A stretch of 35,267 nucleotides of DNA, taken from the IMG/VR virus record IMGVR_UViG_3300024344_000060, positions 1-35,267 of that record. One strand, 5' to 3'. The stretch is from a virus. Positions within the stretch are counted from its first letter, which is position 1. Every line of letters starts with the position of its first letter. Both the position numbers and the translations under genes were made by a program. Of the stretch, positions 2 through 33,302 are shown piece by piece. Below the pieces are notes generated by a model. The model was not told where the DNA came from and ran no database searches. It saw nothing but the letters and a program-made list of their open reading frames with translations.

Positions 2-325
2 ATGATAAATGATGAATTAAAAAAGAAACATGATGAAATGTTTAAGGAATGTATTGATTTAATGAGAGAGCCTATTTCTAAAATGGGTGACAAGTATCCA
101 TTAGAAATAATCAATGCGTCTTTAATTGAATTAGGTTTGAGAATGTCTATGATACAAGGGGGCACTTATCATACAATAAGAGTGTTCGCTAATGTTATGG
201 ATAACCTGGCGACCTTTGGTCAGATGATTGAAAAAGATTTACAATCTATGCTTGAAGAAGGACATGAGCCAAATCCATTTGACGATTGGAAGTACACGGA
301 TTCAACCAAGAAAACTATTCATTAA
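2..325 (+). CDS. Hypothetical protein, 107 aa, possibly 5'-truncated
   Basis: I do not recognise this small, mostly helical, charged protein. No membrane segment, signal peptide or cysteine motif is visible. The ATG lies at the second base of the window, so its ribosome binding site cannot be seen and the real start may be outside. A sigma-70-like promoter follows the stop, so this gene probably ends an upstream transcript. One copy of the AGGGGGCAC motif (157-165) lies inside the coding sequence. It is likely a real gene because the frame is open throughout and codon use matches its neighbours. Confidence 0.7.
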   Translation: MINDELKKKHDEMFKECIDLMREPISKMGDKYPLEIINASLIELGLRMSMIQGGTYHTIRVFANVMDNLATFGQMIEKDLQSMLEEGHEPNPFDDWKYTDSTKKTIH

Positions 326-333
326 GAATTTTG

Positions 334-362
334 TTGACATGGTGTCGACAATAGTATATAAT
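334..362 (+). promoter_or_regulatory. Sigma-70-type promoter
   Basis: A perfect TTGACA (334-339) and a perfect TATAAT (357-362) are separated by 17 bases. They lie in the 51-base gap between the first gene and the 52-aa gene at 377. Predicted transcription starts near 369, leaving almost no leader before the ATG. This would be read by host RNA polymerase and probably drives the small genes and the nuclease up to about 3409. Confidence 0.85.
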
Positions 363-376
363 ACATGGAGTGTGTG

Positions 377-535
377 ATGTATAAAAAGAAACTATTAATT
401 TTAATATTTAAAACCTCTGCCCTTGTGCAAACTTACTCTAATAAAGTAAGGGTGTGGGCATTGTATAAAATGCATGAAGTTAAAAAGCAAAGTAAATACA
501 AACCACACAAAAAATATATGAGAGGTAAGAAATGA
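377..535 (+). CDS. Small basic protein, 52 aa
   Basis: The frame starts at ATG 377, six bases after a GGAG (367-370), and ends in an ATGA overlap with the next gene (ATG 532, TGA 533-535). The product is strongly basic, with many Lys and no Asp. Its N-terminal third is hydrophobic (residues 6-19, rich in Leu and Ile), followed by a Lys-rich tail ending in MRGKK. I cannot assign a function. The promoter directly upstream, the good ribosome binding site and the coupled stop make it credible despite its size. Confidence 0.55.
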   Translation: MYKKKLLILIFKTSALVQTYSNKVRVWALYKMHEVKKQSKYKPHKKYMRGKK

Positions 536-813
536 AAAAATTTGATGTGACTACTTCCCATTGTTTTACACAGCATTGGGAGGTCGTGGCTAAAGATAAG
601 GAACAAGCCGCGAAAAAAATTATGGAAGGTGATTTAAAGTTTGATAAAACTTCAAGGACTTATGTGTCCAATAAGTTTACCCGTGCTTTGATAACGATTC
701 CAGATGCTACAGTATTGTCAGTTGAACCTATCAAACCTAATGATGTGGAAAAACATACAGATACTATTGACATAGATGTGGAGGGTAGTTATGGTGGAAC
801 AGATCCAGATTAA
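532..813 (+). CDS. Hypothetical protein, 93 aa
   Basis: A small soluble protein with an acidic C-terminus and no recognisable motif. The start ATG 532 follows an AGAGGT (521-526) and overlaps the stop of the upstream small gene, which suggests coupled translation. The N-terminal part (residues 1-60) alternates charged and beta-prone residues and looks folded; the last 25 residues, rich in Asp and Gly, look disordered. It overlaps the following membrane-protein gene by 23 bases. Function unknown. Confidence 0.7.
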   Translation: MKKFDVTTSHCFTQHWEVVAKDKEQAAKKIMEGDLKFDKTSRTYVSNKFTRALITIPDATVLSVEPIKPNDVEKHTDTIDIDVEGSYGGTDPD

Positions 814-1054: not shown

Positions 1055-1073
1055 CAGGAGAGGAGCCAGACAA

Positions 1074-1639: not shown

Positions 1640-1645
1640 GGTAAT

Positions 1646-2129: not shown

Positions 2130-3085
2130 TGGAACAACCAGAAAAATTAAAGAAGTATTTAATTCAAGACGATAAACCTAGACAAGCTATATGGGATTCA
2201 TCTAGCCTGTCTACATTTTCTGCATGCCCTAGAGCATACAATCTTTCCAACCTATTGGGATATAAATTAAAACTCTATGCCCCTGTCACAGGATTTGGAT
2301 CAGCAGTACATGACGGCTTTGAAGTTTTAGATAAAGGCAAACATGAAGGCAAGTCTAAAGATGAGTCAGTAAATAAAGCAGTTACTTTTATTATAAAAGA
2401 ATACGGCAAAGACTTATCACAAGCTGAAGATAAAGCCAGAGGTCTTGAGGCGGCAATAAGGACAGTAGTATGGAGAGCCGAAGAATATTGGGAAGACACT
2501 TTAAAAATTGCGACCATGCCAAATGGTGCCCCCTGTCTAGAGAAAAGGTTTGAAGTTCCTTTTGGAGAGCGAGGTCATAGATTTTCTGGAAGGATAGATA
2601 AGATAGTGGAGTTAAATAATCGTTTGTATTTATGTGATACTAAAACAACAAAGGCTTCGCTTACTGATTTATATTTTAGAAACTTCCAACCAAGCAATCA
2701 AATCTATGCGTACATCTGGGCGGCTAGATTCGTATTGGGTTTAAACATTGCAGGATTTATTATTGATGCTGTACAAACAGGTGTACATTTTTGTAGATTT
2801 AATAGAAGCATATTTAATGTATCAAAAGAATCTATACTAGAATGGTACAACGATGCACAGTATCATATCTCTTTGTCAGATGCATATGCAGATAACGGTT
2901 GGTATCCTGCCAACTTTACATCATGTGGCAACTATGGTGGTTGTAAGTTCAGAGAAGTATGTGGTGAATCACCTGAACACCGTACGATTTTGTTAGAAGA
3001 AGACTTCATTCGTGACCCGCATGCTGACTTGCAAGTGGATAATGTTATTCATGTGCCAGAAAATATATTTAGGAAAAAGAAATGA
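2129..3085 (+). CDS. PD-(D/E)XK nuclease, Cas4/RecB-like with likely Fe-S cluster, 318 aa
   Basis: The order of motifs matches Cas4/AddB/RecB-type nucleases: an N-terminal 'LSTFSACPRAYNL' with Cys33, a His at about 61, a core 'GRIDKI' (Asp157), 'CDTKTT' with Asp170-x-Lys172, and a 'QIYAY' helix near 191. Three more cysteines near the C-terminus (266, 272, 278) with Cys33 could hold a 4Fe-4S cluster, as in Cas4. The expected activity is DNA end resection in phage recombination or repair. The frame extends upstream to 2030, but ATG 2129 has AAGGAG (2115-2120) and overlaps the previous stop. An antisense GGGGGCAC motif lies at 2526-2534. Confidence 0.85.
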   Translation: MEQPEKLKKYLIQDDKPRQAIWDSSSLSTFSACPRAYNLSNLLGYKLKLYAPVTGFGSAVHDGFEVLDKGKHEGKSKDESVNKAVTFIIKEYGKDLSQAEDKARGLEAAIRTVVWRAEEYWEDTLKIATMPNGAPCLEKRFEVPFGERGHRFSGRIDKIVELNNRLYLCDTKTTKASLTDLYFRNFQPSNQIYAYIWAARFVLGLNIAGFIIDAVQTGVHFCRFNRSIFNVSKESILEWYNDAQYHISLSDAYADNGWYPANFTSCGNYGGCKFREVCGESPEHRTILLEEDFIRDPHADLQVDNVIHVPENIFRKKK

Positions 3086-3409: not shown

Positions 3410-3412
3410 TTG

Positions 3413-3461: not shown

Positions 3462-4280
3462 ATGGCAAGTATTAAAAATCATCAATCAACTGATGTTACT
3501 AAACTATTACTCGTAGGAGATAGTGGTTCTGGTAAGACGGCTTCATTGGCTCAGCTCGCAAATGCTGGATACAATTTACGTATCTTGGATTACGATGATG
3601 GGTTAGCTATTCTTCCAGAGTTTCTAACTGCTGATGCAGTAGATAGAGTTAGTTACGTAACGTTGAAAGACCCCATTGGAAAGGCAGATTCTTTTCGAAG
3701 GGGTGTTAATTTAATTTCAAATTGGAAAGACGAAGGAGAAGACTTCGGGCCTGTTAGTAAGTGGACATCTAAAGATGTCTTAGTCATTGACAGTCTAACC
3801 CTAATGGGTGAAGCGGCTTTAAGGGGGGCACTTGTATTTAATAACAAGAAGCCAACCGATCAAGCTAGCCAACCAGAATGGGGCACTGCGGCTCGCGATG
3901 TACAACACATTGTACAATACATAACAGGTACTGAAGCACCATGTAATGTGGTAGTAACAACCCATATGCAATATATGGAAGGCGATTTGGGTGTGTCTAA
4001 AGCATATCCAACTAGTGTCGGTTCAAAGTTATCAACCAAGTTAGGTAGATACTTTAACTGTGTATGCAGAATTGATACTAGAAGTTCTAGCAAAGGAGTT
4101 GAGCGAACTTTGAGAACTGTATCCGATCATCGCATGGATCTAAAAGTAACGGCACCAAAATTAATTGAGCCTAATACTGAATTAGATTTAGCTAAGTTGT
4201 TCGGAGCAATACAAAAGAATGCTCAACAAAAATTATCCAAGAAGGATAATGTAATTAACATCAAGACAGGAGGTAATTAA
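3462..4280 (+). CDS. Sak4-like RecA-fold ATPase (recombination), 272 aa
   Basis: A P-loop NTPase with Walker A 'GDSGSGKT' (residues 19-26), an acidic patch 'DYDDG' (43-47), Walker B 'VLVID' (106-110) and a sensor-like 'VVVTTHMQ' segment. This pattern and length match phage Sak4-type ATPases, which help single-strand annealing proteins in phage recombination. The next gene encodes a putative ssDNA-binding protein, and the Sak4/SSB pairing is common. The start has AGGAG at 3451-3455. The stop overlaps the next ATG (TAATG). A GGGGGGCAC copy lies at 3823-3831 in the sense strand. Confidence 0.8.
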   Translation: MASIKNHQSTDVTKLLLVGDSGSGKTASLAQLANAGYNLRILDYDDGLAILPEFLTADAVDRVSYVTLKDPIGKADSFRRGVNLISNWKDEGEDFGPVSKWTSKDVLVIDSLTLMGEAALRGALVFNNKKPTDQASQPEWGTAARDVQHIVQYITGTEAPCNVVVTTHMQYMEGDLGVSKAYPTSVGSKLSTKLGRYFNCVCRIDTRSSSKGVERTLRTVSDHRMDLKVTAPKLIEPNTELDLAKLFGAIQKNAQQKLSKKDNVINIKTGGN

Positions 4281-4723: not shown

Positions 4724-5797
4724 ATGGGTGAGTATGCAGTTAAGCAAAGAGTTCCTTCTCAATTAAAGAAGGGGGCAAAGATAGCCATAGTCATGGACTA
4801 TCCTAACTCTAATGAAGTTCGCTTGAATAAAATACTTGCAGGAGATTTTATAGTCAATAAGATTTGTAGACTAGCAGGGATACAAATAGAAGATTGTATG
4901 CTCACCCACACTATTCAACTTAAACCTGCACAAGACAACCCCCAAAATTTTTTTCACAAACGTTCTGAATATAAAGCTTTGTGTAAAGATAGTGAGTGGC
5001 GTTCTTCCTATCCGATTACCACCTATGGCTACCTCAAGCAGGAGATGGAGCAAGACTTACAACGTTTATACAATGAACTCAATGAGACAAACCCCAATGT
5101 TATTATAGCAATGGGGGGAGTTTCATTGTGGGCACTCACAGGATTTGATAAGGTAGGTATATACAGAGGTGCTGTTATTCCTTCAACTCAAGAAAGATTG
5201 AAACAGGTTAAGGTAGTACCTTCTTATAATCCTTCTGCCGTAGTTAGAAACTATGGCTTCAGAGCACACGTTTATTCTGACTTTAAAAAAGCTAAACGTG
5301 AATCAGAATTTTCACATATTAATTATACAACAAGAGAGCTATGGATTGAGCCTCAGTTAGACGACATGTATGCATTTGAATCAGAATACATACATAGAAA
5401 TAATGCTGAGGCACCATTGGCTTTCGATATTGAAACAGCGGGAGGGCAGATAACGTGTATTGGATTTGCCCCCTCTTTAAATCATGCAATCGTGGTCCCA
5501 TTTAAGTACAACTATTGGTCACGTGATGAAGAAGACAAAGCGTGGGCATGGGTTAAAGACTTATTGGAAGATACGAACTTAGTTAAAGTTGCACAGAATC
5601 AAACGTATGACATATCATGGTTAGCTTACAAACAGAATATAAAAGTAAGTGGACTAGTACATGATACAATGCATGCACAACATTCACTGCAGCCAGAAAT
5701 GGAAAAAGGTTTAGGTTTTCTCGGCTCCATATACACTAATGAAAGTGCATGGAAAACATTAGCCAAGTTCTCTAAGAGCACAAAAGCTGATGAGTAG
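4724..5797 (+). CDS. UDG-like domain fused to 3'-5' exonuclease domain (N-terminal half of split Pol A), 357 aa
   Basis: Residues 1-190 resemble the family 4 uracil-DNA glycosylase fold once called 'SPO1 DNA polymerase-related', with 'MDYPNSNEV' (24-32) in place of the catalytic GExPG motif and 'NPSAVVR' (169-175) in place of HPS. The catalytic motif is degenerate, so activity is doubtful. Residues 230-345 form a DEDD exonuclease: Exo I 'FDIET' (Asp235, Glu237), Exo II 'NQTYD' (Asn292, Asp296) and 'YTNESAWK' (337-344). The protein stops before Exo III. The missing motif and the polymerase domain lie 530 bases downstream in a separate gene (6324-7844). The stop overlaps the GTG start of the next gene (TAGTG). 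No strong ribosome binding site precedes ATG 4724. Confidence 0.8.
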   Translation: MGEYAVKQRVPSQLKKGAKIAIVMDYPNSNEVRLNKILAGDFIVNKICRLAGIQIEDCMLTHTIQLKPAQDNPQNFFHKRSEYKALCKDSEWRSSYPITTYGYLKQEMEQDLQRLYNELNETNPNVIIAMGGVSLWALTGFDKVGIYRGAVIPSTQERLKQVKVVPSYNPSAVVRNYGFRAHVYSDFKKAKRESEFSHINYTTRELWIEPQLDDMYAFESEYIHRNNAEAPLAFDIETAGGQITCIGFAPSLNHAIVVPFKYNYWSRDEEDKAWAWVKDLLEDTNLVKVAQNQTYDISWLAYKQNIKVSGLVHDTMHAQHSLQPEMEKGLGFLGSIYTNESAWKTLAKFSKSTKADE

Positions 5798-6355: not shown

Positions 6356-7844
6356 ACACGATCTAAATAAAGATCAAATACTTTGGACGTATTGTGCATT
6401 AGATTGTACATTGACCCATGAGATATGGTCTAGGATACATAAAGAGTTTGATCCTATAACTAAAAGAGTTTACTTATTTGAATTAGATAGTTTAAAACCT
6501 GCAATGGAAATGATGTTGCGAGGTTTAAAAGTTGATGAAGTTAAAGTAAAAGAAAAGAAAGAAGTCTTACGTGCTCGTAGATTAAAACTAGAACGTATGC
6601 TTAATCTTTTTGCACAAGGTGTATGGGGTAAAGATTTAAATCACAATAGCCCTGTGCAACTTAAGAAAATTTTATATGAAGACTTAGGCCTACCACCTGT
6701 TGTGTCTTACAAAGGGGGCAAGTCAAAGATATCTACTGACCGTGCAGCTTTGGAGCAGCTTGGGGAATTTTATCCAAGAGCAAAACCATTCGCACATACC
6801 ATACTTGCACTACGTGACATAACTAAACAGCTTTCTGTTTTAGATTCTAAACGTGATAAGGATGGCAGGATTAGATGTTCATATAATGTAGCAGGTACAG
6901 AGACAGGACGTTGGTCTTCATCAGAAAGTCCTTGGAGAACAGGAACTAATTTACAAAATGTTACAAAGGAATTACGTTCAGTATTTATTCCAGATGATGG
7001 CATGGTTATGTTCTATGCAGATTTAGAACAAGCAGAGTCGAGAGTTACTGCTTATGTTGCAGGTGATGAAGGTTATATAAATGCATGTGAGAGCACAGAC
7101 TTACACACTGAAGTAGTTAAAATGGTTTGGCCCAACTTGGGTTGGTCTGATGATCCTGCGCAAAACAGGGAGCTTGCAAACAAACCTTATTACTTACACT
7201 TTACATATCGTGACATGTGTAAACGAGCAGGTCATGGTACTAACTATGGAATGTCAGCACATGCATTAGCTAAACATTTAAAAATAAAAGTTTCACATGC
7301 GACAAGATTTCAGTTGCTTTATTACGGAGGTGTGGTACCATTAGCTTCTTTAGAACGTTGGCACCAACAAGATAGAGAAGGAGGCTTTCAAGAATTGATA
7401 GACACAGGAGAGATAATAGGTAAGCTAGTAAAAATACAAGGAGCATTCCCTGGCATACGTGCTTGGCACAACGAAGTATCGGGTGAGTTAAAACAAACAG
7501 GTTGTTTAACTACACCTTTAGGTAGGCGCCGACAATTCTGGGATAGATTAAATGATAACTCTACATTGAGACAGGCTATAGCTTATGTTCCACAATCTAC
7601 TATTGGGGATTTATTAAACATGGGTTTATACAATGTATGGAAAAGTGTTAGAGAGATAGAGATACTTGGCCAAGTGCATGATGCTATCTTGGGTCAATGT
7701 CCTATTGAAAGAGTGGATGAATTAATGCCTAAAGTTTTAGAGCAAATGAACAACCCTTTAGAAGTTAAGGGAAGACAAATGATTATCCCTTCCTCAGTTG
7801 AGGTGGGTCATACATGGAAGGATATGGAAACATGGAAGAAGTAA
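6324..7844 (+). CDS. Family A DNA polymerase domain (C-terminal half of split Pol A), 506 aa
   Basis: Replicative polymerase domain. The first 30 residues carry exonuclease motif III, 'WTYCALD' (Tyr23, Asp27), so the exonuclease active site must be completed by two polypeptides. The polymerase motifs are intact: 'TGRWSS' (194-199), motif A 'DLEQAE' (Asp233, Glu238), motif B 'RDMCKRAGHGTNYG' (Arg296, Lys300, Tyr308) and motif C 'VHDA' (His452, Asp453). The residue matching E. coli Phe762 is His304. The start is GTG 6324 with AGGAGA (6313-6318) five bases before it; an in-frame TTG at 6309 is less likely. It overlaps the preceding small gene. A sense AGGGGGCAA copy is at 6713-6721. Confidence 0.9.
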   Translation: MKIVKNTEINKHDLNKDQILWTYCALDCTLTHEIWSRIHKEFDPITKRVYLFELDSLKPAMEMMLRGLKVDEVKVKEKKEVLRARRLKLERMLNLFAQGVWGKDLNHNSPVQLKKILYEDLGLPPVVSYKGGKSKISTDRAALEQLGEFYPRAKPFAHTILALRDITKQLSVLDSKRDKDGRIRCSYNVAGTETGRWSSSESPWRTGTNLQNVTKELRSVFIPDDGMVMFYADLEQAESRVTAYVAGDEGYINACESTDLHTEVVKMVWPNLGWSDDPAQNRELANKPYYLHFTYRDMCKRAGHGTNYGMSAHALAKHLKIKVSHATRFQLLYYGGVVPLASLERWHQQDREGGFQELIDTGEIIGKLVKIQGAFPGIRAWHNEVSGELKQTGCLTTPLGRRRQFWDRLNDNSTLRQAIAYVPQSTIGDLLNMGLYNVWKSVREIEILGQVHDAILGQCPIERVDELMPKVLEQMNNPLEVKGRQMIIPSSVEVGHTWKDMETWKK

Positions 7845-11117: not shown

Positions 11118-12077
11118 ATGAGTATATTTAAAGAGAGAGATTATTACAAACCATTCACATATCCATGGGCTTTTGAAGCCTATGACATGCAACAAAAAAT
11201 GCATTGGCTTCCAAGTGAAGTACCACTTCATGAAGATGTTAATGATTGGAATAATAGAATGGATGAAGGCGAAAAGAATTTAGTAAAACAAATATTAACT
11301 TTCTTTACACAAGGTGATGTAGACATAGCACAAGCTTACATGGATGTATATGTTCCAATGTTTAAACCACCAGAGATACGTATGATGTTATCGTCTATAG
11401 CTACAAGTGAAGCCAACCATGCCCACAGCTATTCATTATTAAATGATACAATAGGTATGGATGATAGAGAGTACAAAGCTTTCCAAGAAATAAAAGCTAT
11501 GAATGATAAGCATGAGTATCTATGGAAAAGCAAAGGGGGCACAGAGGAAGAACAAATGATAAGAGACATGGCGGTGTTCTCTGCATTTGGTGAAGGCCTT
11601 CAATTGTTTGCTAGCTTTGTTATGCTTCTAAACTTTACAAGGTTTGGTAAGATGAAAGGCATGGGACAAATTGTCGCATGGTCTATAAGAGATGAGTCAC
11701 ATCATGTGGAAAGCATGATTAAATTATTCCATTGTTTATTAGATGAGAAACCTAAGGTTTGGAATGACAATTTTAAAAAGAGTTTATATGAGATATGTCG
11801 TGACATGGTAATGTTAGAAGATAAGTTTATTGATTTGGCTTTTGCTATGGGTCCTGTTCAAGGACTGACAGCAGATGAAGTCAAACAATATATACGACAT
11901 ATAGCAGATAGAAGACTACTACAGCTAGGGTTAAAACCTAACTATGGGGTAAAAGATAATCCACTCGAATGGGTCGATTGGATAGTTAACGGAGTAGAAC
12001 ATACCAACTTTTTTGAGAACAGAGCTACTGAATATGCTAAAGGTGCCATGACTGGTACTTGGGCTGATGCATTTTAA
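11118..12077 (+). CDS. nrdB: Class I ribonucleotide reductase small subunit, 319 aa
   Basis: Holds the di-iron/tyrosyl radical cofactor used by NrdA. All expected ligands are present with exact E. coli spacing: Asp67, Glu98 and His101 ('SEANH'), Glu159 ('FGEG'), Glu193 and His196 ('DESHH'). The radical tyrosine is Tyr105 ('HAHSY'), so this is a conventional Tyr-radical enzyme rather than a Mn/Fe Tyr-less type. The ribosome binding site is AGAGG (11105-11109). A sense AGGGGGCAC motif (11534-11542) lies within the gene. The stop is two bases before the next promoter. Confidence 0.95.
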   Translation: MSIFKERDYYKPFTYPWAFEAYDMQQKMHWLPSEVPLHEDVNDWNNRMDEGEKNLVKQILTFFTQGDVDIAQAYMDVYVPMFKPPEIRMMLSSIATSEANHAHSYSLLNDTIGMDDREYKAFQEIKAMNDKHEYLWKSKGGTEEEQMIRDMAVFSAFGEGLQLFASFVMLLNFTRFGKMKGMGQIVAWSIRDESHHVESMIKLFHCLLDEKPKVWNDNFKKSLYEICRDMVMLEDKFIDLAFAMGPVQGLTADEVKQYIRHIADRRLLQLGLKPNYGVKDNPLEWVDWIVNGVEHTNFFENRATEYAKGAMTGTWADAF

Positions 12078-12079: not shown

Positions 12080-12115
12080 TTGACAGAAAATCAAAAGTAT
12101 GGTAGTATTATAAAT
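12080..12115 (+). promoter_or_regulatory. Sigma-70-type promoter after nrdB
   Basis: TTGACA (12080-12085) starts two bases after the nrdB stop. GGTAGTATTATAAAT (12101-12115) is identical over 15 bases to the promoter at 3433-3447; TAGTAT (12103-12108, spacer 17) is the likely -10. Transcription should begin near 12115-12121, right at the GGGGGGCAC motif and the hairpin that follows. Confidence 0.75.
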
Positions 12116-12118: not shown

Positions 12119-12168
12119 GGGGGGCACAAAGGGCAGACTGATCTAGGTTAGTGTGCCCTTAGCTTTTT
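12119..12168 (+). terminator. Terminator-like hairpin or attenuator downstream of a promoter
   Basis: AAGGGCA (12129-12135) pairs with TGCCCTT (12154-12160); after one G-G mismatch the stem extends with ACTGA (12137-12141) against TTAGT (12148-12152), leaving a six-base loop. AGC and five T residues (12164-12168) follow, so it reads as an intrinsic terminator. A second 5' arm, GGGCACA (12122-12128), can pair with TGTGCCC (12152-12158) instead. GGAGG (12171-12175) of the next gene comes three bases after the T run's C-T, so the structure could control that gene. Confidence 0.65.
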
Positions 12169-12501: not shown

Positions 12502-12703
12502 GTACGATGGCTTTGCTAAAAAATTATTTTATGATTTTAGAAAGACGAGGAAGGGTATACCCTATTGGGAGCGGTTACACTTTAAAGATAGAGATGAGTG
12601 GCGTGGTATAGCTCAGCTTATTAAAAGAGAACGTAGACATTTTAAAAAGCTACGAAAGAAAACAGGAGACAATAATGAAAGACCTATTACAAGAAGCGGT
12701 TAA
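12479..12703 (+). CDS. Hypothetical basic protein, 74 aa
   Basis: A small basic protein rich in Lys, Arg and aromatic residues ('PYWERLHFKDRDEWRG' in the middle), probably helical and perhaps nucleic-acid binding; no family recognised. ATG 12479 follows a purine-rich GGAAGGGAAG (12466-12475), better than the in-frame ATG at 12455. It overlaps the previous gene by 23 bases and the phosphoesterase gene by 29 bases. Confidence 0.65.
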   Translation: MYQEKQTKYDGFAKKLFYDFRKTRKGIPYWERLHFKDRDEWRGIAQLIKRERRHFKKLRKKTGDNNERPITRSG

Positions 12704-13914: not shown

Positions 13915-13951
13915 TAAAGGGGGACGCAAGGTATTGCATGTGCCCCCTTTA
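13915..13951 (+). terminator. GC-clamped hairpin between operons
   Basis: TAAAGGGGG (13915-13923) pairs perfectly with CCCCCTTTA (13943-13951), a nine-base stem whose 19-base loop holds a further GCAA/TTGC pairing. It ends eight bases after the phosphoesterase stop and is followed by only a weak T run. It includes the antisense GTGCCCCCT motif (13940-13948). The -35 of the next promoter lies in its loop, so termination and initiation share this site. Confidence 0.55.
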
Positions 13952-13962
13952 TCTGATATAAT
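13934..13962 (+). promoter_or_regulatory. Sigma-70-type promoter for the small-protein and lysis region
   Basis: TTGCAT (13934-13939) and a perfect TATAAT (13957-13962) are spaced 17 bases apart. Transcription would start near 13969, and AAGGAG (13983-13988) then serves ATG 13995. It probably drives the cluster from 13995 to 18492, in which no other promoter was evident. Confidence 0.75.
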
Positions 13963-19221: not shown

Positions 19222-22200
19222 TTAATCTAATCCTAAAGCTTCTCTTATTAATTTTTTCTCAGCGTAAAGTTTCTTATTAGTCTGACTTATTCTAAATTCT
19301 GGATGCACAGCTTTCATAGCTTCTTGATATAATCTAGATAGATCAGGAATAAAAACCAATTGTGGTGGTTTGTTAGAGTTATAATCCATAATGTCTGCCA
19401 TGATATCTTCTAACTCTTGTTGTCCTTCATTAACCATATCTGCATTATACCTCATACCACCAATTATTATGCTTCTATAAGCATTTGATATCTGAGCATT
19501 CTTTCTTTGTCTAAATAAATTCATTCGTTTATCTAGTTTACCTTCTTGCCATATAGCTTCTCTTTGTTTAGCAATAGAAGCTGGAGCAAACCCAAACGCT
19601 TGCATCATTATTTCCCAACCTTTTATATCTTGAGTCAACACTTGTCCATAACTTGTGCTAGCAAATCCATTTCCATATGAAGAATACTCTACAGCTTTTA
19701 ACATATTACGTATTGCAGTAGGCATTGATTGTTGAAATGCTTTGCCCCAATTTTGTTCTCTTACACCTTGTTCTATAAGACCTTTTGCTGCATCAACATA
19801 AACAGAACCTGGCGCTCCTAAGAACTCTTCAGCTCTAGCACCTGTTGGTATGCCCATTATATTTAATCCTGCTCTTACTTGTTGAGACCAAGGTAATACA
19901 CCAAAGCCAACTCTTCGTTGAACATCCCACCCAAGAGTAGAATTTATTAAACCATTTTCCACAGCATTAATTAAGCCAGGTCCCCAACCTGCTTCATATA
20001 ACATATTACGAAACTCTGTTCTTACATCAGAGTCTAAACCTGTTATCATCTTCTTAGTTAAATCATATAAATCTTCTGCGTCTTCACCACCAGGTAATCC
20101 CATAAGACCACCAGTCACAAGCATCATTAACATTATTCTAGCAAATGCTCTTCGGCCCATTCTATTTTGTAGTTTTGTTTTTGCTGGGTTAGCTACACCT
20201 ATAGTGAATCCGCCGCCAGCTTTTCTCTTTAATACAGGTGGGTTTAGTAAACGATACAGCAGTCCTACCATTTGTGTCATGTAAGTCATGAATAGTGCAG
20301 GTAATGAACCTAAGCCCCTACCTATTTGTTGTCTATTTTCTTTACCATATATACCAAATGTTTCCTCGGTCATGAATCTTGCCAATGCTTCTGGAGATCT
20401 TCCATATTGCGCCATAGTTAGTTGATAATCCATATCATCACCATACAAAAGATCTGCTTTATCTAATACTTTAGGATCATTCTTTGCTAAATTGTATGTA
20501 GCTATAAAAGCTGTAATACGAGACGCTGCCTCAAATGTATTGAATGCTCCACCTACTATAACACTCTCCACCCATCTAAATGTTTTGTCTCTTTCTCTTT
20601 GGCTACCTACTAATGAACCGCCCATACCAGGAGTTATACCTGCTTCTTGTAAAGCTTGTCCTTGTTTAATTGTTCCATCTGCTATGGCACGGAACAGTGC
20701 CTCTTTAATATCACCTTCTGGTAATTTATTAAAATCAATAAATGCATCTTGGTATTGTCTTTGTCCTGCTACGCCATCTACTACCATACTAGAAGCGTGT
20801 GCAAAAGCTTTACGCAATTCATTTACAGTAGATACTGTGCCCCCTAGTTGTGATAGTATCGGTCCTGTAAATTGTACTAAACTCATAGTTTGTAAGACAG
20901 CTGATGATAAGTTTCCACCAAGATACCACCAAAATCCTATACGTCTCATGTTAGCAAATTCTTGTACAGGGTCATCTACATATGTATCATATTTTTCTGC
21001 GAATCTTAATAGATTAGTGTCACCTTTATCCATTGCCCATTTTCTAGTTTCATCGTAATATTTATTTTTATCTTTCATGTATCTATTACGAGATAATTGA
21101 TTACTGGCTACCATTATGTATTGCATAATAGCACGAGGAAAATCTGCACTATAACCTGGGACACCTTCAGCTCCAACTGATTTATCTCTTGCTATGAAAA
21201 ATGAATTAAGTCCCATTGTATCTTTATCTAATCCTTTTTTCGCAAGTACTTCTCTTAGTTCTTTTAATATTAATTGATAACTTTGTGCATTAGTATCAGA
21301 CATAAATTGTGCGAGGTATTCTAAATTTTTAAATCCTTTACCCTCTTGTATCATTTGTCTCAATCTGTCTATGGTCATTTCAGAGGGGGCACTTATATCG
21401 GCTTCAGGATACTTAACCCTAAGACCAGGCAATGCCGCCTGAGCTTCTCCCATAGTTTCAAACTGTTGATACCAAAGTAATTTTTTAGACTCTTCACCCT
21501 TCTCATCTGTTTCAAGAGCAGATACACTAATGTAGAATTTTCCAAAACGCATCAATGGTACATACATTTTTTTATTTAATGTTTCTACTTGTCCTGCTTG
21601 ACTTAATAAAGCATTAAGACCTGCGTCTTTATTACCTAATAAAGTTTGTATTTGTTCTAGAACATCTCCTTGTATTGATGTTCTCATAATCATAATGTTA
21701 GATAAGCTATCTACAATAAATTTAATCTGTGTATAATCTAATTGTTCTAATAAGTTAGCTATCTCTTGTTGGTCCATTCCCTCAAAGTTATATAATGTTT
21801 TTAGCTCAGGCATTTGCGGGAAAAATCTTTTCAATAAGTTTATACCCATTATTAAATTAGGTACATGTTCTCTAGCAATCTCTGCCTTTAGCCATTCTTT
21901 GTTTATATCTTGGAATGTTTTGTGCACGTCAATAAAAGCTTGTGCAACGTCACCTTCTAGTACAACAACCTCACCTTTTTTAACGGGTAAGTCTGCGGCT
22001 CCTCCATCTTCAGGAGCAATAAATGTTAAACGCCCATTAGGATCTACTTGCATATTCATAGCATCTGTCATCTGTGCAATAATCATAGCTTTAGCTAGTG
22101 CTTCTTTCATTGCATCATCTTGAATAACATTCATGTAATTACGTCTTAAGTAATCTGTAAACTGTTGCTGTAATGATCTGTTCTTGCGAGTCATATTTAT

Positions 22201-25200: not shown

Positions 25201-27021
25201 TTGTGCATCTTGCTCAGCTCTATCAATTAAAGCCAAGTCTCTCCAGAAAGTATAATCTTCTGTTACAGCTTTCTTTAAATCTTCACCCGTAAGTTTATCA
25301 TACTTTTTAAATAAAGGATTGAGTGGATCAATGTAAGGTTCATAACCATACTCATTTATAAATTCTTTTCTTTCTTCACTGGATAATCTTTCTGTTTGTT
25401 GCTGTGCTCTTGCAACTTCTATTCTATTTACTAATTCATCTATTGTTGCTTCTTTACCGCCCAGAAAAGTATCAACTGATTCATCTTTAGAGTTAGGTAT
25501 ATAACCTGTTTCTTCTAAAGCTTTTTTACTATCTGAATATTGTTTTCTTAATTTGGCATCTACATTTACCTGTTCATTAGGATTGGCAATATCATATTCA
25601 TAAATATCACCAGGCTCTGCCCCTCCTGTTGGAGTATCTACTTGATTGATTAGCCCAGCTTGTCTTATAGGTACAGTTGCTATAGCTGCTGGTATATCTA
25701 CTTGTGATAAAATAAATTGTTTTTCACCATCTAAATCTGCAGTACCTACAACTTTAAATTTAGGTTTATCAAACATATTCTCTAAATCTTTTTGTCTGCC
25801 TGGAGGTATGTCAGGATTGTATTGATTGTCTACTGTAACTGTGCTTCCTATGTCAAATTCTCTTGCTTCAAAAATAGGTGTTGAAACATCTAATGGATCT
25901 AGGTTAGATATTGCCGCACCACCTTTAGCATCTACAGGACCCGTGCCTTTACCTAACATCTTAATTGATTTATATGTAGGATTGATCATACCAAAACCAA
26001 AACCACCAAAGAAACCAGCTGCCGCCGCTTCACCTAATTGTTTAGCAAACTCTTTATCATTATATAATTCATCGAAGTTAACTCCTGTAGAAATACCAGC
26101 CGCAGTTCTGTTTAATGTTTCTTGTATACCCTCTGCAAGACCTTCACCTAACATTGTTAAAGGTACTTCTTTTGCAAACGTTCCAGGTATTCTTTTTAAA
26201 CTTCCTTTACTTCCATTCTTAACTGCTTGCACCATGCCCTTTTGGGCCATTTGTCTAGCTGCTTCTCTTGTTCCAAAAGTTCTAATCAAAGAAGGAACTA
26301 CACCACCAATACCCAATCTTTCAACAGCCGCGTATGGCACAGCTAGTGCCAGAGATAATCCAACATTAGGATCTTCAACACCAGCTTCTCTTTGTGCAAG
26401 AGTTGTATCACCTAATCCAAATATATAACCACTAAGTAAAGTACCTGCTGTTGCACCTGCAACTGTTCCACCTGGACCAGCTAATGAACCAACTGCACCA
26501 CCCACAATACCCATAATAATAGTAGGTATAGTAGTTGCCGCTGCATTACCTGAGGTGTATTTTAAATATTTAGTGAAAGCTGTTAATTGATCATCATCTT
26601 TTACAATATCTTCTATTGTACTAGGGCGTGCAAGTAACTCGCCATCTTCTGTTCTTTGAAAAATGTGTGCTGATCTATCTAATAGATATTGTTCTGCTAC
26701 TTTAAGAGCTTCTTCTTGATGCTCTTTAGCTCCTACAAAATCATAGAATGATGATAGTGCCCCCTGTCCGATAGCTTTCAAACTATCCATACCACCTTTA
26801 AAAGAAGATGTAAAAGAACCATCATCAAGGTTCTCTGCTTCTAACATGTCTACAGGTTGCAGACCGTACTTGTACATGAAGCCTTTCTCGAACATTGCGT
26901 TCTCAAGTTGCTCTGATTTTAAAAATTCTTTGATTTCTTCCTGCGATAAATCTGCAGGTAAACGGATTCTAGGTGCATTGGGCACCTGTTTAAACTCTAT
27001 AAATTTTACTGGCTCTGCCAT
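19222..27021 (-). CDS. Giant polyvalent/internal virion (ejection) protein, 2,599 aa
   Basis: One unbroken frame of 7.8 kb, over a fifth of the window. Visible parts in order: a short N-terminal region; a Gly/Ala-rich hydrophobic zone (about residues 155-245) that could insert in membranes; a long charged helical part (400-900); a gluzincin-like peptidase motif 'NHEAIHAL' (His1075, Glu1076, His1079) followed about 50 residues later by 'YEEEGIAYAF' (Glu1129-1131); a 'QEGRHRVF' block (near 1390) of the ParB-like/polyvalent type; and a C-terminal 650 residues with 'GFWWYLGGNLSSAVLQT' (near 2025) and several hydrophobic stretches (about 2230-2300), as in PLxRFG-type proteins. Such proteins are packaged and injected with the DNA. 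AAGGA lies five bases before the ATG. Motif GGGGGCAC occurs three times inside. Confidence 0.85.
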   Translation of the reverse strand: MAEPVKFIEFKQVPNAPRIRLPADLSQEEIKEFLKSEQLENAMFEKGFMYKYGLQPVDMLEAENLDDGSFTSSFKGGMDSLKAIGQGALSSFYDFVGAKEHQEEALKVAEQYLLDRSAHIFQRTEDGELLARPSTIEDIVKDDDQLTAFTKYLKYTSGNAAATTIPTIIMGIVGGAVGSLAGPGGTVAGATAGTLLSGYIFGLGDTTLAQREAGVEDPNVGLSLALAVPYAAVERLGIGGVVPSLIRTFGTREAARQMAQKGMVQAVKNGSKGSLKRIPGTFAKEVPLTMLGEGLAEGIQETLNRTAAGISTGVNFDELYNDKEFAKQLGEAAAAGFFGGFGFGMINPTYKSIKMLGKGTGPVDAKGGAAISNLDPLDVSTPIFEAREFDIGSTVTVDNQYNPDIPPGRQKDLENMFDKPKFKVVGTADLDGEKQFILSQVDIPAAIATVPIRQAGLINQVDTPTGGAEPGDIYEYDIANPNEQVNVDAKLRKQYSDSKKALEETGYIPNSKDESVDTFLGGKEATIDELVNRIEVARAQQQTERLSSEERKEFINEYGYEPYIDPLNPLFKKYDKLTGEDLKKAVTEDYTFWRDLALIDRAEQDAQQNQLPEEDRNRLQQLGYLSGPRGQEYIQRQIENITPVPGKKKITEGRRIINDIIKNNRTFSTLAPILGGPVTEKIQVGETVRTTEPLTAAQKASITGDKIVPVMRYHPLLLKEEFTFEDLYEIPSNERMRMVLQLADALDSTGIKRKYLQQYKELRQTKVGLVNAARAQFGILSDAYKEARQELKDFDNTGEHIVRADKQMGDIKETFRLFPVFTPQALRAAARQLEKIRADSKYRAADPNVRAPLVAEEVAYKSLITQTFRARKDINKLLQSLSIEPILDTPIRGAMSWETVTLTKVKKQINKLRKQLNQTETQVTRRKIYGEFVRFNKSSATGSSQPGILTEVDDNLPLITELMREWLDQLGLSQTDLAIVNNVMSGGRPQEGIGGGFTAPEYIRTAIKRTGAPTLTVPEFPNLTYGLIQIAFNMDMYQNINERIARNNYTNPALRKTDMEFSAAQMMTAFQSLNHEAIHALKNLGLFTDKEWNILTKAARDQWINEYGIKDKYTWTNNTFNQTEQQMYEEEGIAYAFANFALQRKLAHLKKGANIDNTLTAQIKKIFVRIKAFLMALASGLRGAGFETPESIFNKIEAGLVGQRMKVEGQIAEMNTAKSLAEMTYKNPRGDVVLSRNLADYSDPTLRNQQKKFIEFMLGEKIDTDTTIQMKFSLDKNKIRFTNRFNDKTVKTTYNNRNFFTFSFDYERENMVGEEIGLTQAVGPENSMYTYMSPQQYLDLTMPLQDTTYDKKAVKFMTQAARDGRVFGVPDLIIELSADGKTGKVVGQEGRHRVFTAQGINGTQSTLPVAIRIIYDPTDSNLAYERLGQLTQNNKRTDPTNKKLITTFLTEGILKGMDREIFRDDPTTDAGALDETRDPFNVRERIKFESSSIPAKQAIAALYESFETTPGGDYQYTNEYINLNQPNPSIQFGDASYDPQFEKNRQERNAEIRKAIKDLDMAATSEPLAAAGRKATPDKMSLFAKIMAHARSIAKRNTPFTYLYNTVINMTRKNRSLQQQFTDYLRRNYMNVIQDDAMKEALAKAMIIAQMTDAMNMQVDPNGRLTFIAPEDGGAADLPVKKGEVVVLEGDVAQAFIDVHKTFQDINKEWLKAEIAREHVPNLIMGINLLKRFFPQMPELKTLYNFEGMDQQEIANLLEQLDYTQIKFIVDSLSNIMIMRTSIQGDVLEQIQTLLGNKDAGLNALLSQAGQVETLNKKMYVPLMRFGKFYISVSALETDEKGEESKKLLWYQQFETMGEAQAALPGLRVKYPEADISAPSEMTIDRLRQMIQEGKGFKNLEYLAQFMSDTNAQSYQLILKELREVLAKKGLDKDTMGLNSFFIARDKSVGAEGVPGYSADFPRAIMQYIMVASNQLSRNRYMKDKNKYYDETRKWAMDKGDTNLLRFAEKYDTYVDDPVQEFANMRRIGFWWYLGGNLSSAVLQTMSLVQFTGPILSQLGGTVSTVNELRKAFAHASSMVVDGVAGQRQYQDAFIDFNKLPEGDIKEALFRAIADGTIKQGQALQEAGITPGMGGSLVGSQRERDKTFRWVESVIVGGAFNTFEAASRITAFIATYNLAKNDPKVLDKADLLYGDDMDYQLTMAQYGRSPEALARFMTEETFGIYGKENRQQIGRGLGSLPALFMTYMTQMVGLLYRLLNPPVLKRKAGGGFTIGVANPAKTKLQNRMGRRAFARIMLMMLVTGGLMGLPGGEDAEDLYDLTKKMITGLDSDVRTEFRNMLYEAGWGPGLINAVENGLINSTLGWDVQRRVGFGVLPWSQQVRAGLNIMGIPTGARAEEFLGAPGSVYVDAAKGLIEQGVREQNWGKAFQQSMPTAIRNMLKAVEYSSYGNGFASTSYGQVLTQDIKGWEIMMQAFGFAPASIAKQREAIWQEGKLDKRMNLFRQRKNAQISNAYRSIIIGGMRYNADMVNEGQQELEDIMADIMDYNSNKPPQLVFIPDLSRLYQEAMKAVHPEFRISQTNKKLYAEKKLIREALGLD

Positions 27022-29001: not shown

Positions 29002-29003
29002 AA

Positions 29004-30797
29004 TTATGCCTGTCCACTATATATAACGTTACCTTCTTCATCAAAGTATTCATCTGGTTGTTCTCCTAATTCTTTTCTTCTTCTAGTTAGATACTCTTGA
29101 AAAGGTTCGAGTTGACTATAACCACCTAGTGTAGCATAGTTTATCGCTTCATTCAATCCCATAGGAGTATTTCCTCTAAATTTACCGCTTTTATCGATAG
29201 CAAATCTTCTGCCAAGCGGTACGTTCATTTCAGTTCCACCTGTTCTTGTATCATCTTTGTACTTCATGGTGCCCCCTACATTGAATTGACCAGCACGTGG
29301 GTCTATATCTATGTTTTCTTTAAACGTTACATTAGATACCTCTTCTGGTACACCACCACCCATACGATCTCTGCCTATGTTATTGCCTCTGCTATCTTTT
29401 GCTAAACGTTCTCTGCCTTCTTCAATCATCATAGTATTTGATCTAGTAAAATCAATCTTACCTTCTTTTTGTAATTGAGCTAATTCTTTAGGTGTAACTC
29501 CTTTTTCTCTCATTCGTTTTTGATAATCTGCTGAGTTTTCTCCAGGCTTTGAACCATAATATTTTTTAGGATCATAAGCTTTTAAAAAGTTATCTCCTCC
29601 ACCTGCTTTTGCTTTTTCTAAAAATCTTTGAAACTTATCTTCTTCACTTAATTCCATATCAAAGCCTTGTTCTTTTTCTACATCACCAAGTATCTCATCC
29701 ATAAAATCTTCGTCGCCATATCTCTTAAAGAAGTTTGCTTGTCTATCTGGATCACCTTCTAAAGTTCTTAATAAATTTCCTAAGCCTATACCTTTATCAT
29801 CTGTACCTAATGATCTCATTAATTTTTCAACTTGATTTGTTTCCATATTCTTAAGAAAATCAGATAATGCATCAGCACCTTCCATCATTAATGAAGGAGG
29901 TATAGATAAAGTATCTTTAGCTTTGTCAATTATACTTTTTTCTTTTTTAGTTTCTTCAATTTGTTTTAATAAATCTTTATCACCATAGTCTTGTATTGTT
30001 TCTGCTCGTCCTGTTTTATCATAATGTTTTGCGGCTCTATTAGCTCTTTTTTGATTGTCTTTGTCATGAAATTGATAACCACTAATAGCTTCTTTACCAC
30101 CAGTTCTAGCTCTTTGATGAGCCTTCTCATCTTGTCCTGCTTGAAATTGTTTTGTCTCTCTATCACTAAAACCCTTTGGAGTTGATCCTCCCAATTTCAT
30201 ATTTTGACCAGCAACATATGCATTTCTAAAAGATTCAATTCCTGTGACTGGTTCTTTTTCACCAGAACCTCCTAACATTTTTAATATGCCTTGTTCTTCA
30301 GGACTAATGTAAGCAAGTTGTTCGCCTTCTGGTGCAAATGCCTCAACCTTTTTAACATCATTTCTTACTTCATTCATTGCAAGCTGCGAGTCTATTTCTT
30401 CTTGAGACATTCCTGACTCAATCATTTTTAATATACTTCTCCAATCAGTTGGGTCTATAGCTGCTTCATCCCTCTCATAGCCATAAATCATTTCATCGTA
30501 TATTCTTCTGGCTTCTTCAGGACCAACACCATATGTTCCCATGATTCTCATTATTTCAGAGTCTTCAAGATTGGCTGTGTTTTGTTCTTCTACACCTTCT
30601 GCCGCTACTTTCATAAAGTTTGGCATTTCTTTGTCAGCTTGAGGTAATTTAAATATACCTGGTGTGTTCTTCTTTTGCATTTTAGAAAGCAAAGCCGCTG
30701 CTCCTACAGGCATCTCATTAGGTTTTGCAACCATATCTCCGCCTTCAACAGGCCCTGTTACTTTCATTTCTGATAATTCTTCTATACCGTATGCCAT
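29004..30797 (-). CDS. Putative virion structural protein, 597 aa
   Basis: A large acidic and charged protein with no hydrophobic segments. Short Met/Gly-rich motifs in the N-terminal 80 residues, long Lys/Glu/Asp helices (about 200-430) and a C-terminal domain that looks beta-rich ('GQFNVGGTMKYKDDTRTGG', about 515-535) are visible. It has its own promoter (30809-30837), and AAAGGATT precedes ATG 30797. Gene order (tail nozzle, small genes, this protein, ejection proteins) supports a tail or internal virion role. I do not recognise the family. Confidence 0.7.
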   Translation of the reverse strand: MAYGIEELSEMKVTGPVEGGDMVAKPNEMPVGAAALLSKMQKKNTPGIFKLPQADKEMPNFMKVAAEGVEEQNTANLEDSEIMRIMGTYGVGPEEARRIYDEMIYGYERDEAAIDPTDWRSILKMIESGMSQEEIDSQLAMNEVRNDVKKVEAFAPEGEQLAYISPEEQGILKMLGGSGEKEPVTGIESFRNAYVAGQNMKLGGSTPKGFSDRETKQFQAGQDEKAHQRARTGGKEAISGYQFHDKDNQKRANRAAKHYDKTGRAETIQDYGDKDLLKQIEETKKEKSIIDKAKDTLSIPPSLMMEGADALSDFLKNMETNQVEKLMRSLGTDDKGIGLGNLLRTLEGDPDRQANFFKRYGDEDFMDEILGDVEKEQGFDMELSEEDKFQRFLEKAKAGGGDNFLKAYDPKKYYGSKPGENSADYQKRMREKGVTPKELAQLQKEGKIDFTRSNTMMIEEGRERLAKDSRGNNIGRDRMGGGVPEEVSNVTFKENIDIDPRAGQFNVGGTMKYKDDTRTGGTEMNVPLGRRFAIDKSGKFRGNTPMGLNEAINYATLGGYSQLEPFQEYLTRRRKELGEQPDEYFDEEGNVIYSGQA

Positions 30798-30808
30798 GTT
30801 AATCCTTT

Positions 30809-30837
30809 ATTATACCCCATATAGTAGCGAATGTAAA
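30809..30837 (-). promoter_or_regulatory. Minus-strand sigma-70-type promoter
   Basis: On the minus strand, TTTACA (30837-30832) and TATAAT (30814-30809) are spaced 17 bases apart in the 53-base gap upstream of the 597-aa gene. It should drive the internal virion genes from 30797 down to 18489. A GTGCCCCC motif abuts the -35 directly. Confidence 0.75.
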
Positions 30838-30845
30838 GGGGGCAC
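30837..30845 (+). repeat. GGGGGCAC motif copy next to a promoter
   Basis: AGGGGGCAC on the plus strand; on the transcribed minus strand it reads GTGCCCCCT and shares its last base with the -35 element TTTACA. It is one of 17 GGGGGCA(C/A) copies in the window and is intergenic, so no coding constraint explains it. Confidence 0.8.
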
Positions 30846-30850
30846 ACCCA

Positions 30851-31222
30851 TTATACTCCACGTAAATCATCGCTTACCTCCATTACTGATATGACTACAT
30901 TAGCTGGTTGAACTGATGTATCAATTTTTAATATATCTCCTGACTCTAAAATAAGCGGCCCGTCTGCTGTAACATTCATGGCTTTTAACGTAGTGTAATC
31001 ACTTGTTGTAAAGTGTTTGAATGTAACCGCTGCCACGCCTGCGCTTGTGTCAACTATTTTAGCGTCTAAAGTACCTGCCCCACCTGTAGTGTTATATACT
31101 ACAAATGTTTTAACAATAGCCATATACTTAATTAAACTAGTAGTCGTTGGACAAGTATAAACTGTTTGGTCAGATCCTGCGGATGTAACTGCTTTTACTG
31201 AATTTTTATATTCTATAGCCAT
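30851..31222 (-). CDS. Small beta-rich structural protein, 123 aa
   Basis: The protein is a Thr/Val/Ala-rich beta-sandwich-like sequence: 'SDQTVYTCPTTTSLIKYM' near the N-terminus, then alternating strands to a 'ILESGDILKIDTS' segment. Such proteins decorate heads or tails in marine phages (head fibre or minor tail protein). ATG 31222 overlaps the preceding stop (TAATG on the minus strand), so the frame's earlier ATG (31237) is rejected. Confidence 0.65.
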   Translation of the reverse strand: MAIEYKNSVKAVTSAGSDQTVYTCPTTTSLIKYMAIVKTFVVYNTTGGAGTLDAKIVDTSAGVAAVTFKHFTTSDYTTLKAMNVTADGPLILESGDILKIDTSVQPANVVISVMEVSDDLRGV

Positions 31223-31410
31223 TAGCTTAAAAACCACTCCATTGAACGTTGTTCATTTTGATCTGCAATCTTAGAAGGAGTCTCTCCTTCAGATAAATCT
31301 CTTAATCTTAATATGTTTATTAGAGCATCATAAGTTCTAGCTGATATAATATTCTCAGCTCTTTCTTGATATGAAAGCTCTGGGTAAACTCCTTTAGTAT
31401 ATAGTCCCAT
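31222..31410 (-). CDS. Small hypothetical protein, 62 aa
   Basis: A compact helical protein ('QERAENIISARTYDALINIL' in the middle) between the tail nozzle and the beta-rich protein. Both ends overlap neighbours by one base (TAATG), so its place in the structural operon is firm. The size would fit a connector, adaptor or assembly factor; nothing in the sequence decides. It has no cysteines and no membrane segment. Confidence 0.7.
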   Translation of the reverse strand: MGLYTKGVYPELSYQERAENIISARTYDALINILRLRDLSEGETPSKIADQNEQRSMEWFLS

Positions 31411-33293
31411 TATCTAGTTCCGTCTGCTTGACCTGTTGCTCTCCAAGTACCAAGTCTCCATGATACATCTGTTGTATCTGAATACCATTTACATTGAAAA
31501 GATCTACCTCTTGCACGTAAATTTAATTTATTAGTGCTTGAAGTTATTGAATAAGGACCTTTAGTTGTTTCTGAATCATTAGGATAGCGCTTAGATTTCA
31601 TTTGAAATTTCATTGTTGATCCTGTACTGAATGATGTATCAGGAATAATTCTATCAATAAATATAATGTTATCCCCATTCTCATCACCACTAAAGAAACC
31701 TGTTTCTACTGAAGCATCCAATGCTGCTGAGGCTGCATTGACACCACGCTCTTGATCGAAAACTTTTCCTGCTGAATCACTTCCAAGAGGATATGTAAAT
31801 ATTCCTGCGTCATGCCACGCTGTTCTATCTAAAGAACCAACTGACCATGTGTTATCTACATAATTATAAATAACATATTTATCTATTTCTGTTGCACTTG
31901 CTGATGGGTAAAACCACCATATTTCATTGAACTCAATTATCTCTGCACTAAATACTTTTTCTCTTTGTGTCTGACTAAAGCTATCAAATACTCTATTAAG
32001 TACTGGACATTTTAAAGTTTTGATTGCACCATCATATGCATAGAAGTTATTAGTTCCCATCCAGAATGCGGCACCTTCAACCATTGCTGGTGAGTTTTTA
32101 GATATCGTACCTGAAGCTTCACCTAATTGTTGGAAAGAGAAAGTAAATGGAGGACCAGTAAACTGCATACCATATGCATCTACGTCTGTCCATAAAATCA
32201 TTTGACCACGACCTTTTGCGGCTGACTCAATATTAGTACCTGTTCCAAGTTTTTGTGCACCAGCTGTATTAGTTAACTGTGTATTCCAATCAGACAAACT
32301 TTCTTGAGAACACCATCTTACTAATGTTCTATCATAAGTAGTTGATCCTTCTGGTGTAGAACCAAAACAAGTTAAATGTCTGTCAGGTGTAGATACAAGA
32401 ACTACTCCAACTTTAGTTGGTATTTTAGTTCTATCTCCACCTACACTATTTACATACCAACTTAATGTAGATCCTCTATAGGTAGTTGGAGCTGCTATAA
32501 AAGCGCTGACATCAAAATAATAAATTGTATCCTCACCTCCGCCAACAGAAGCTACTATATCTTCGCCCCAACTGTCCATAGTCCACACACGTGGAGATAA
32601 TACAACACCTGAAGTGGAACGTGCTGTTCCCCATGATGCTGATCCCCACATTCCTGCGCCAAATCCGTAACCTGTTAAGCCATCGGATGGTCCGTTACTT
32701 ACTAAATATCTTAAAACTACTGCACCCCCACCAGATGTACTACCTGATGATGCTGTTCCTGATATACTGCCTGTTCCTCCTGCGACTGGTGTAATTGTGT
32801 AAGTTGTGCTACTTACCCATGTAGCATAATACTCACCTGTTGCAATAGTTACACCATCAACTGTTCCTGAAGCTATTGAGGAAATGACAATACGAGAAGC
32901 AGGACTTGTTCTTGCAATTTCGTTACCTGCATCTGTAACTGTAATTACTGAAGAACCTGCTGATCCCGTAGCAAAGGGATTAGTTAGATTAACATCGTCT
33001 GTTTTGTATGGAGTTATATCCTGTAATGAGCCTGAATACTCTGCGTATACATGCGTACTAGTCCCGTAAAAAGCTAATTTTCTTCCTTGAAGATCTCTGT
33101 GTGGAAATATATTTCTATTCTTTCCATCAAAACTTGTGCTGCTAAAAGCGTCTCTGGTTACCCAGCCGCCTATTTTTTCTGCTTGGTCAAAACGAAAACG
33201 AACTTTGTCTGCGTCTGTGTAACGCATGCCCGCTTGGTAATCTGTTACCTCTGTTACCACTCCAGCAGGCGCCGTTAATTTTACGTTTGGCAT
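31410..33293 (-). CDS. Tail nozzle / DNA-stabilisation protein (P22 gp10, T7 gp12-like), 627 aa
   Basis: The opening 'MPNVKLTAPAGVVTEVTDYQ' and 'DADKVRFRFDQAEKIGGWV' are hallmarks of the podovirus tail nozzle or packaged-DNA stabilisation family. Residues 60-470 carry repeated Trp/Gly-rich beta-propeller-like blades ('WGSASWGTARS', 'WTMDSWGED', 'VRWCSQESLSDW'), with a Ser/Thr/Gly-rich inserted domain (about 105-200). The C-terminal part is beta-rich with 'KSKRYPNDSETTKG'. It forms the tail tube through which DNA leaves. AGGGGG, which is also a motif copy (33294-33302), lies three bases before the ATG and serves as ribosome binding site. Confidence 0.85.
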   Translation of the reverse strand: MPNVKLTAPAGVVTEVTDYQAGMRYTDADKVRFRFDQAEKIGGWVTRDAFSSTSFDGKNRNIFPHRDLQGRKLAFYGTSTHVYAEYSGSLQDITPYKTDDVNLTNPFATGSAGSSVITVTDAGNEIARTSPASRIVISSIASGTVDGVTIATGEYYATWVSSTTYTITPVAGGTGSISGTASSGSTSGGGAVVLRYLVSNGPSDGLTGYGFGAGMWGSASWGTARSTSGVVLSPRVWTMDSWGEDIVASVGGGEDTIYYFDVSAFIAAPTTYRGSTLSWYVNSVGGDRTKIPTKVGVVLVSTPDRHLTCFGSTPEGSTTYDRTLVRWCSQESLSDWNTQLTNTAGAQKLGTGTNIESAAKGRGQMILWTDVDAYGMQFTGPPFTFSFQQLGEASGTISKNSPAMVEGAAFWMGTNNFYAYDGAIKTLKCPVLNRVFDSFSQTQREKVFSAEIIEFNEIWWFYPSASATEIDKYVIYNYVDNTWSVGSLDRTAWHDAGIFTYPLGSDSAGKVFDQERGVNAASAALDASVETGFFSGDENGDNIIFIDRIIPDTSFSTGSTMKFQMKSKRYPNDSETTKGPYSITSSTNKLNLRARGRSFQCKWYSDTTDVSWRLGTWRATGQADGTR

Positions 33294-33302
33294 GTGCCCC
33301 CT
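33294..33302 (-). repeat. GGGGGCAC motif copy acting as ribosome binding site
   Basis: On the minus strand, AAGGGGGCAC ends directly at the ATG of the tail nozzle gene. It is the only copy placed to act as a Shine-Dalgarno sequence, and GGGGG is not the best match to anti-SD, so the motif may have been kept for another reason. Confidence 0.75.

Follow-up and report, generated by a model that had tools for sequence, protein, structure and literature searches.

GGGGGCA, a dispersed word under selection in a family of uncultured phages, and its possible reading by a phage-encoded DNA-binding protein

The IMG/VR virus record IMGVR_UViG_3300024344_000060, analysed here over its full length of 35,267 bases (hereafter the window), carries many scattered copies of the short G-rich word GGGGGCA, often followed by C. 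This motif is real, occurs throughout a family of related phages and is under selection. As to its nature, the sequence evidence leaves us with about an even chance that a sequence-specific DNA-binding protein of the phage family itself binds GGGGGCA(C) all along the genome.

Results

The window and its motif copies

The window, which has no end repeats, is a podovirus-like contig of an uncultured, probably marine phage, the marine habitat being what we infer. Its genes form two convergent arms, with the replication module on the left and the structural genes on the right. The left arm encodes a PDDEXK nuclease, a Sak4-like protein, a UDG/exonuclease, a family A DNA polymerase, a DUF3987 primase, ribonucleotide reductase (RNR) and a protein that we call gp410. 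The window is probably a fragment, since no gene for a terminase, portal or capsid protein was recognised in it. The motif copies, the sigma70-like promoters P1 to P3 and gp410 lie as follows.

157-165, plus strand: motif AGGGGGCAC, within a 107-residue open reading frame (ORF)
2526-2533, minus strand: motif GGGGGCAC, antisense in the PDDEXK nuclease gene
3824-3831, plus strand: motif GGGGGCAC, within the Sak4-like gene
4771-4778, plus strand: motif GGGGGCAA, within the UDG/exonuclease gene; position common to relative G003
5466-5473, minus strand: motif GGGGGCAA, antisense in the UDG/exonuclease gene; position common to G003
6714-6721, plus strand: motif GGGGGCAA, within the DNA polymerase A gene
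11535-11542, plus strand: motif GGGGGCAC, within the RNR beta gene
12080-12108, plus strand: promoter P3 (TTGACA-17-TAGTAT), upstream of the gp410 gene cluster; sequence match only
12120-12127, plus strand: motif GGGGGCAC, at about +5 of P3, followed by a 5' untranslated region hairpin
12675-13907, plus strand: gp410, with an N-terminal helix-turn-helix (HTH_8), a long helix and a C-terminal Mre11-type metallophosphoesterase domain; candidate motif reader
13934-13962, plus strand: promoter P2 (TTGCAT-17-TATAAT), downstream of gp410, with the motif in its spacer; layout repeated in relatives
13940-13947, minus strand: motif GGGGGCAC, inside the P2 spacer
16519-16526, plus strand: motif GGGGGCAA, within a 93-residue ORF
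17762-17769, plus strand: motif GGGGGCAC, within a 139-residue ORF
20837-20844, minus strand: motif GGGGGCAC, within the gene for a 2599-residue protein
21385-21392, plus strand: motif GGGGGCAC, antisense in the 2599-residue gene
26757-26764, minus strand: motif GGGGGCAC, within the 2599-residue gene
29269-29276, minus strand: motif GGGGGCAC, within the gene for a 597-residue protein
30809-30837, minus strand: promoter P1 (TTTACA-17-TATAAT), in front of the 597-residue gene; sequence match
30838-30845, plus strand: motif GGGGGCAC, adjoining the -35 box of P1 and kept at P1 across the family
33294-33301, minus strand: motif GGGGGCAC, directly upstream of the ATG of the gene for a 627-residue protein, overlapping the ribosome-binding region; shared with G001 and G002

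All 17 copies listed in the initial annotation were recovered at their places, ten on the plus strand and seven on the minus strand; by the eighth base they divide into 13 GGGGGCAC and four GGGGGCAA. The positions also reproduce its count of 28 runs of at least five G or C in the window, of which 17 fall within the motif. Its rough estimate that less than one copy of the 8-mer would be expected by chance holds: in 100 dinucleotide shuffles of the window GGGGGCAC occurred 0.15 times on average and twice at most, and a third-order Markov model predicts 0.46 copies, against 13 observed. In the Markov test of all 8-mers, GGGGGCAC ranks first, and AGGGGGCAC is the top 9-mer (10 copies versus 0.11 expected). 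Since the motif itself contributes to the Markov background, the test of GGGGGCAC is conservative. Among 7-mers GGGGGCA comes third; the two ahead of it, AGGGGGC and GGGGCAC, are the motif itself in a shifted frame.

The motif across the phage family

Relatives were gathered by scanning viral contigs with alignments of gp410, the polymerase and the primase, and by a further scan with Sak4. The 14 large family genomes contain 345 copies of GGGGGCA, between 12 and 32 each, on both strands in every genome, compared with 26 copies of the reversed word. The only other GGGGGNN word with more than 35 copies is GGGGGGC, for the most part a one-base displacement of the motif. GGGGGCA has 29, 21 and 32 copies in the three closest relatives and is the first 7-mer by Markov z-score in each; it ranks at or close to the top in most contigs of the family, is enriched in nearly all members gathered by the scans and is the most enriched word across the family. 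In a pool of 59 near-family loci it occurs 486 times (76 expected), and in a more distant pool of 13 loci GGGGGCACG occurs 64 times (0.4 expected). Counting only distinct, non-homologous contexts still leaves 47 copies of GGGGGCAC versus 3.6 expected, a homology-corrected enrichment that no word approaches in relatives outside the family. When all viral contigs were scanned for two close copies, a weak test, 47 stretches were found, none below 39.9% GC.

The consensus itself drifts: depending on the subclade it reads GGGGGCA-N, GGGGGCAC or GGGGCACG. C follows GGGGGCA in 13 of 17 copies in the window, in two of 32 in G003 and nearly always in the distant subclade, where G is favoured next; the number of Gs changes across the family as well. 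The 8-mer of the initial annotation is enriched, but it is the 7-mer GGGGGCA that forms the family core, the eighth base being subclade-dependent.

Individual sites come and go. Where the three closest relatives can be aligned to the window, they have only 3 of 8, 3 of 6 and 6 of 9 sites in common with it; at the other sites the homologous sequence differs, mostly by substitutions, through which motif copies are gained and lost. A lack of the word at non-homologous positions in related phages, which the initial annotation had named as the observation that would speak against it, was looked for, and what we found was a word enriched family-wide, mostly at different positions.

Nor do the encoded proteins account for the coding copies. 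As initially claimed, these use more than one reading frame, and synonymous codon shuffles fall far short of the observed numbers: 0.93 sense and 0.06 antisense copies are expected in the window, where there are 10 and 3. For the window together with the three relatives nearest to it, the shuffles give about one sense and 0.04-0.19 antisense copies per genome, compared with 10-20 and 3-7 observed. Because about one copy per genome is all that synonymous shuffling predicts, the motif is not caused by protein sequence. The proposal that the motif has no function and reflects inherited sequence or compositional or codon bias could draw on copies shared by descent, such as the one in the RNR beta gene, filled in 10 of the 10 family genomes having that gene. 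Against it stand the dinucleotide, Markov and codon-shuffle controls, the homology-corrected counts and the turnover at homologous positions, which together effectively refute it.

A link between the motif and the 627-residue tail protein was considered and rejected: wider relatives that share only this protein (L013-L088) are not enriched in the word. G011 lacks the tail module and keeps the motif. For these two reasons, the motif appears to track the replication module or the host.

The motif, Chi sites and the host

Dependence on the host would be expected if GGGGGCA(C) were a Chi-like site, recognised by a host RecBCD or AddAB that then stops degrading DNA, so that phages without an inhibitor accumulate copies. 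The likeness is evident, as Chi-type words are short and G-rich (PMC5959072), and the motif is likewise a short asymmetric G-rich word over-represented on both strands. Over-representation of Chi is known from phages that encode a recombinase and lack an inhibitor of RecBCD (PMC3784561), and the present family encodes a Sak4-like protein. The spacing of the copies would also suit a protective mark. It is regular, around 1.5 kb, and more even than random, individually at P<0.05 in 8 of the 14 genomes; the combined P of about 1e-8 is overstated because the genomes have sites in common.

However, no support for this option of the initial annotation was found among bacteria: none of 552 proteobacterial genomes, many of them of 0.8-1.6 Mb, is comparably enriched in the word over its reverse, a set in which the host of the phage may not be included. 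The densest of them has roughly one copy per 13-19 kb and an excess of at most 2.6-fold, whereas the phage has one per 2.7 kb and no reversed copies. Phages carry Chi at roughly the density found in their host, with an observed-to-expected ratio of about 2.5 in comparable phages (PMC3784561), far below the enrichment seen here. Drift of the consensus between phage subclades would be odd for a conserved host enzyme, and the few fixed promoter positions described below would be unexpected. A further discrepancy comes from the RNR beta gene (11118-12077), which is 76% identical at the DNA level to its counterpart in pelagiphage HTVC031P, a phage with zero copies of GGGGGCA. No match to HTVC031P was found in the rest of the left 20 kb of the window, and this isolated match suggests gene exchange; no close cultured phage of the window was found. 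A Chi-like function thus seems to us somewhat unlikely.

Intergenic copies and promoters

Intergenic sequence, 6.8% of the total in the 14 genomes, holds 69 of the 345 copies, a threefold enrichment, although 80% of copies lie inside genes. Some intergenic places recur: the -35 box of the promoter of the 597-residue gene, the 17-base spacer of the promoter after gp410, a site near +5 of the promoter that precedes the gp410 cluster, and the vicinity of the start codon in the 627-residue gene. Promoters and transcription starts were predicted from sequence only. Of the strong intergenic promoters 21 of 59 have the motif, compared with about 11% expected from intergenic density, the 59 being homologous between genomes and representing only about four independent loci. 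The initial annotation's idea of an operator for a phage regulator therefore applies to part of the copies, which have operator-like placing at a few conserved promoters; coding copies have no link to promoters. At P3 the transcript would begin with a predicted hairpin adjoining the motif (12119-12165), and most of the 14 genomes have a similar hairpin in this position, though its stem sequence varies.

Scattered operator-like sites bring to mind the stoperators of cluster A mycobacteriophages such as L5 and Bxb1, at which a bound repressor halts transcription elongation. Here, too, there are tens of short asymmetric sites per genome throughout a family, some of them at promoters, with a consensus that diverges along with the phages (PMC6550527). 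Stoperators are oriented with transcription and lose their function when reversed (PMC9283540). The initial annotation correctly counted 12 of 17 copies facing the direction of transcription, but this is not a property of the motif. In the 14 genomes the coding copies do favour the sense strand (202 versus 74), a codon effect, whereas the intergenic ones are split 36 with transcription and 33 against. This even split among copies that no codon constrains makes a directional mark less likely. The sites are also mostly within genes, the word is shorter than a stoperator, and neither an integrase nor a repressor was recognised among the proteins examined. Strict stoperators are accordingly a very improbable explanation.

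gp410 as a candidate reader

If a phage protein reads the motif, gp410 is the leading candidate, an assignment from sequence that we hold to be more doubtful than probable. It is present in all 14 large family genomes, matches the Pfam family HTH_8 and is related to the exonuclease profile phrog_284 (E 2.6e-41). In its predicted model, three helices form the N-terminal domain and a long helix leads to a further domain whose best structural matches are Mre11 proteins (E 2e-7); no sequence relatives were found in the PDB. Thus, gp410 resembles the phrog_284 and Mre11-type metallophosphoesterases in profile match and predicted fold and differs from them by the N-terminal HTH_8 and the long helix. 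The putative recognition helix, (I/L)PR(T/S/P)T(L/F)xxR, is nearly invariant in members bearing the motif and differs in most relatives without it. In every one of the 14 genomes an intergenic motif of the same orientation lies upstream of gp410, 0.4-3.9 kb away and mostly at a promoter that can be recognised, which is what self-regulation by gp410 would lead one to expect.

The predicted union of a DNA-binding HTH with an Mre11-type fold also bears on another explanation, that the copies are nick, priming or recombination sites at which a phage nuclease (gp410, for example) or primase acts during replication or repair. The motif follows the replication module, being kept in G011, and its spacing is regular. 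Phage tf offers a precedent, its DNA being nicked locally at scattered sites with a consensus of similar length (9 bases) and a comparable number of copies (14; PMC3517423). Known nick sites, those of tf included, are however all on one strand (PMC3517423), whereas GGGGGCA, known here from genome sequence, occupies both; moreover, the promoter positions would be left unexplained, and any catalytic activity of gp410 is hypothetical. We consider this explanation unlikely. A more specific version, in which gp410 would be a site-directed Mre11-like nuclease acting at GGGGGCA self-marks, for instance to protect phage DNA or to start recombination, and would regulate its own cluster through the motif as well, seems quite improbable. 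Because unconstrained copies have no preferred orientation and both strands are used, we class the motif neither as a stoperator nor as a tf-type nick site.

Relatives of gp410 also exist elsewhere. A scan of genome contigs yielded only three distant matches in metagenome-assembled genomes (MAGs) and no host. In one MAG contig with a gp410 relative, GGGGCGTA was examined as a dispersed word and rejected as a local cluster. A local CGGGGCGTA cluster lies at 36406-38038 of G006:C203, a Vicinamibacterales MAG, apparently on the contig with a gp410 relative. Separately, in L347 (IMGVR_UViG_3300037424_000117), a phage with a gp410 relative, the palindrome GTTTAAAC is in great excess in 21 kb (count 14 with both strands counted, z 24); it is also in excess in Caulobacter phage Kuura (L302).

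Other features

At 4724-5797 of the window a UDG-like domain is fused to a 3'-5' exonuclease domain, and the DNA polymerase A gene follows separately downstream. In most family genomes, a region that the window lacks encodes an amidoligase-like and a gamma-glutamyl cyclotransferase-like protein (L099:1320-2540; L098:17872-18330, G001). No tRNA genes were found in the window or in the relatives scanned, and no Rfam families in the window.

Discussion

The reading that we favour, binding of the scattered GGGGGCA(C) sites by a protein of the phage family, could accommodate both classes of sites. At promoters, where copies lie against the -35 box, in the spacer or near +5, the bound protein would act as a regulator. 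Elsewhere along the genome it might mark or organise phage DNA, or block or slow polymerases. The role of the coding copies and the part of gp410 as reader are what we infer.

Several observations weigh against this reading. Relatives beyond the family that encode a gp410 homologue show no dispersed word of this kind (those of low GC contain a single GGGGGCA in 254 kb), and since they keep gp410 without one, gp410 alone does not need such a word. Covariation between gp410 residues and the eighth motif base was rejected as evidence for a reader, because it is dominated by shared ancestry and the HTH positions do not stand out. A looser definition of promoters leaves only a small excess of copies (27 versus 21), and inside genes the motif coincides with promoter-like sequences 35 times where 56 would be expected, so that no link is seen there. 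In addition, the comparison of possible readers covered few of the small conserved family proteins, and the window does not include the region of early genes.

Our literature searches on the word and on Chi in marine phages returned nothing relevant, and no description of such a genome-wide system was found. A dispersed word kept by selection across an uncultured phage family implies a genome-wide protein-DNA system. Whatever reads it, GGGGGCA can serve as a family signature for finding these phages, and possibly their host, in metagenomes.

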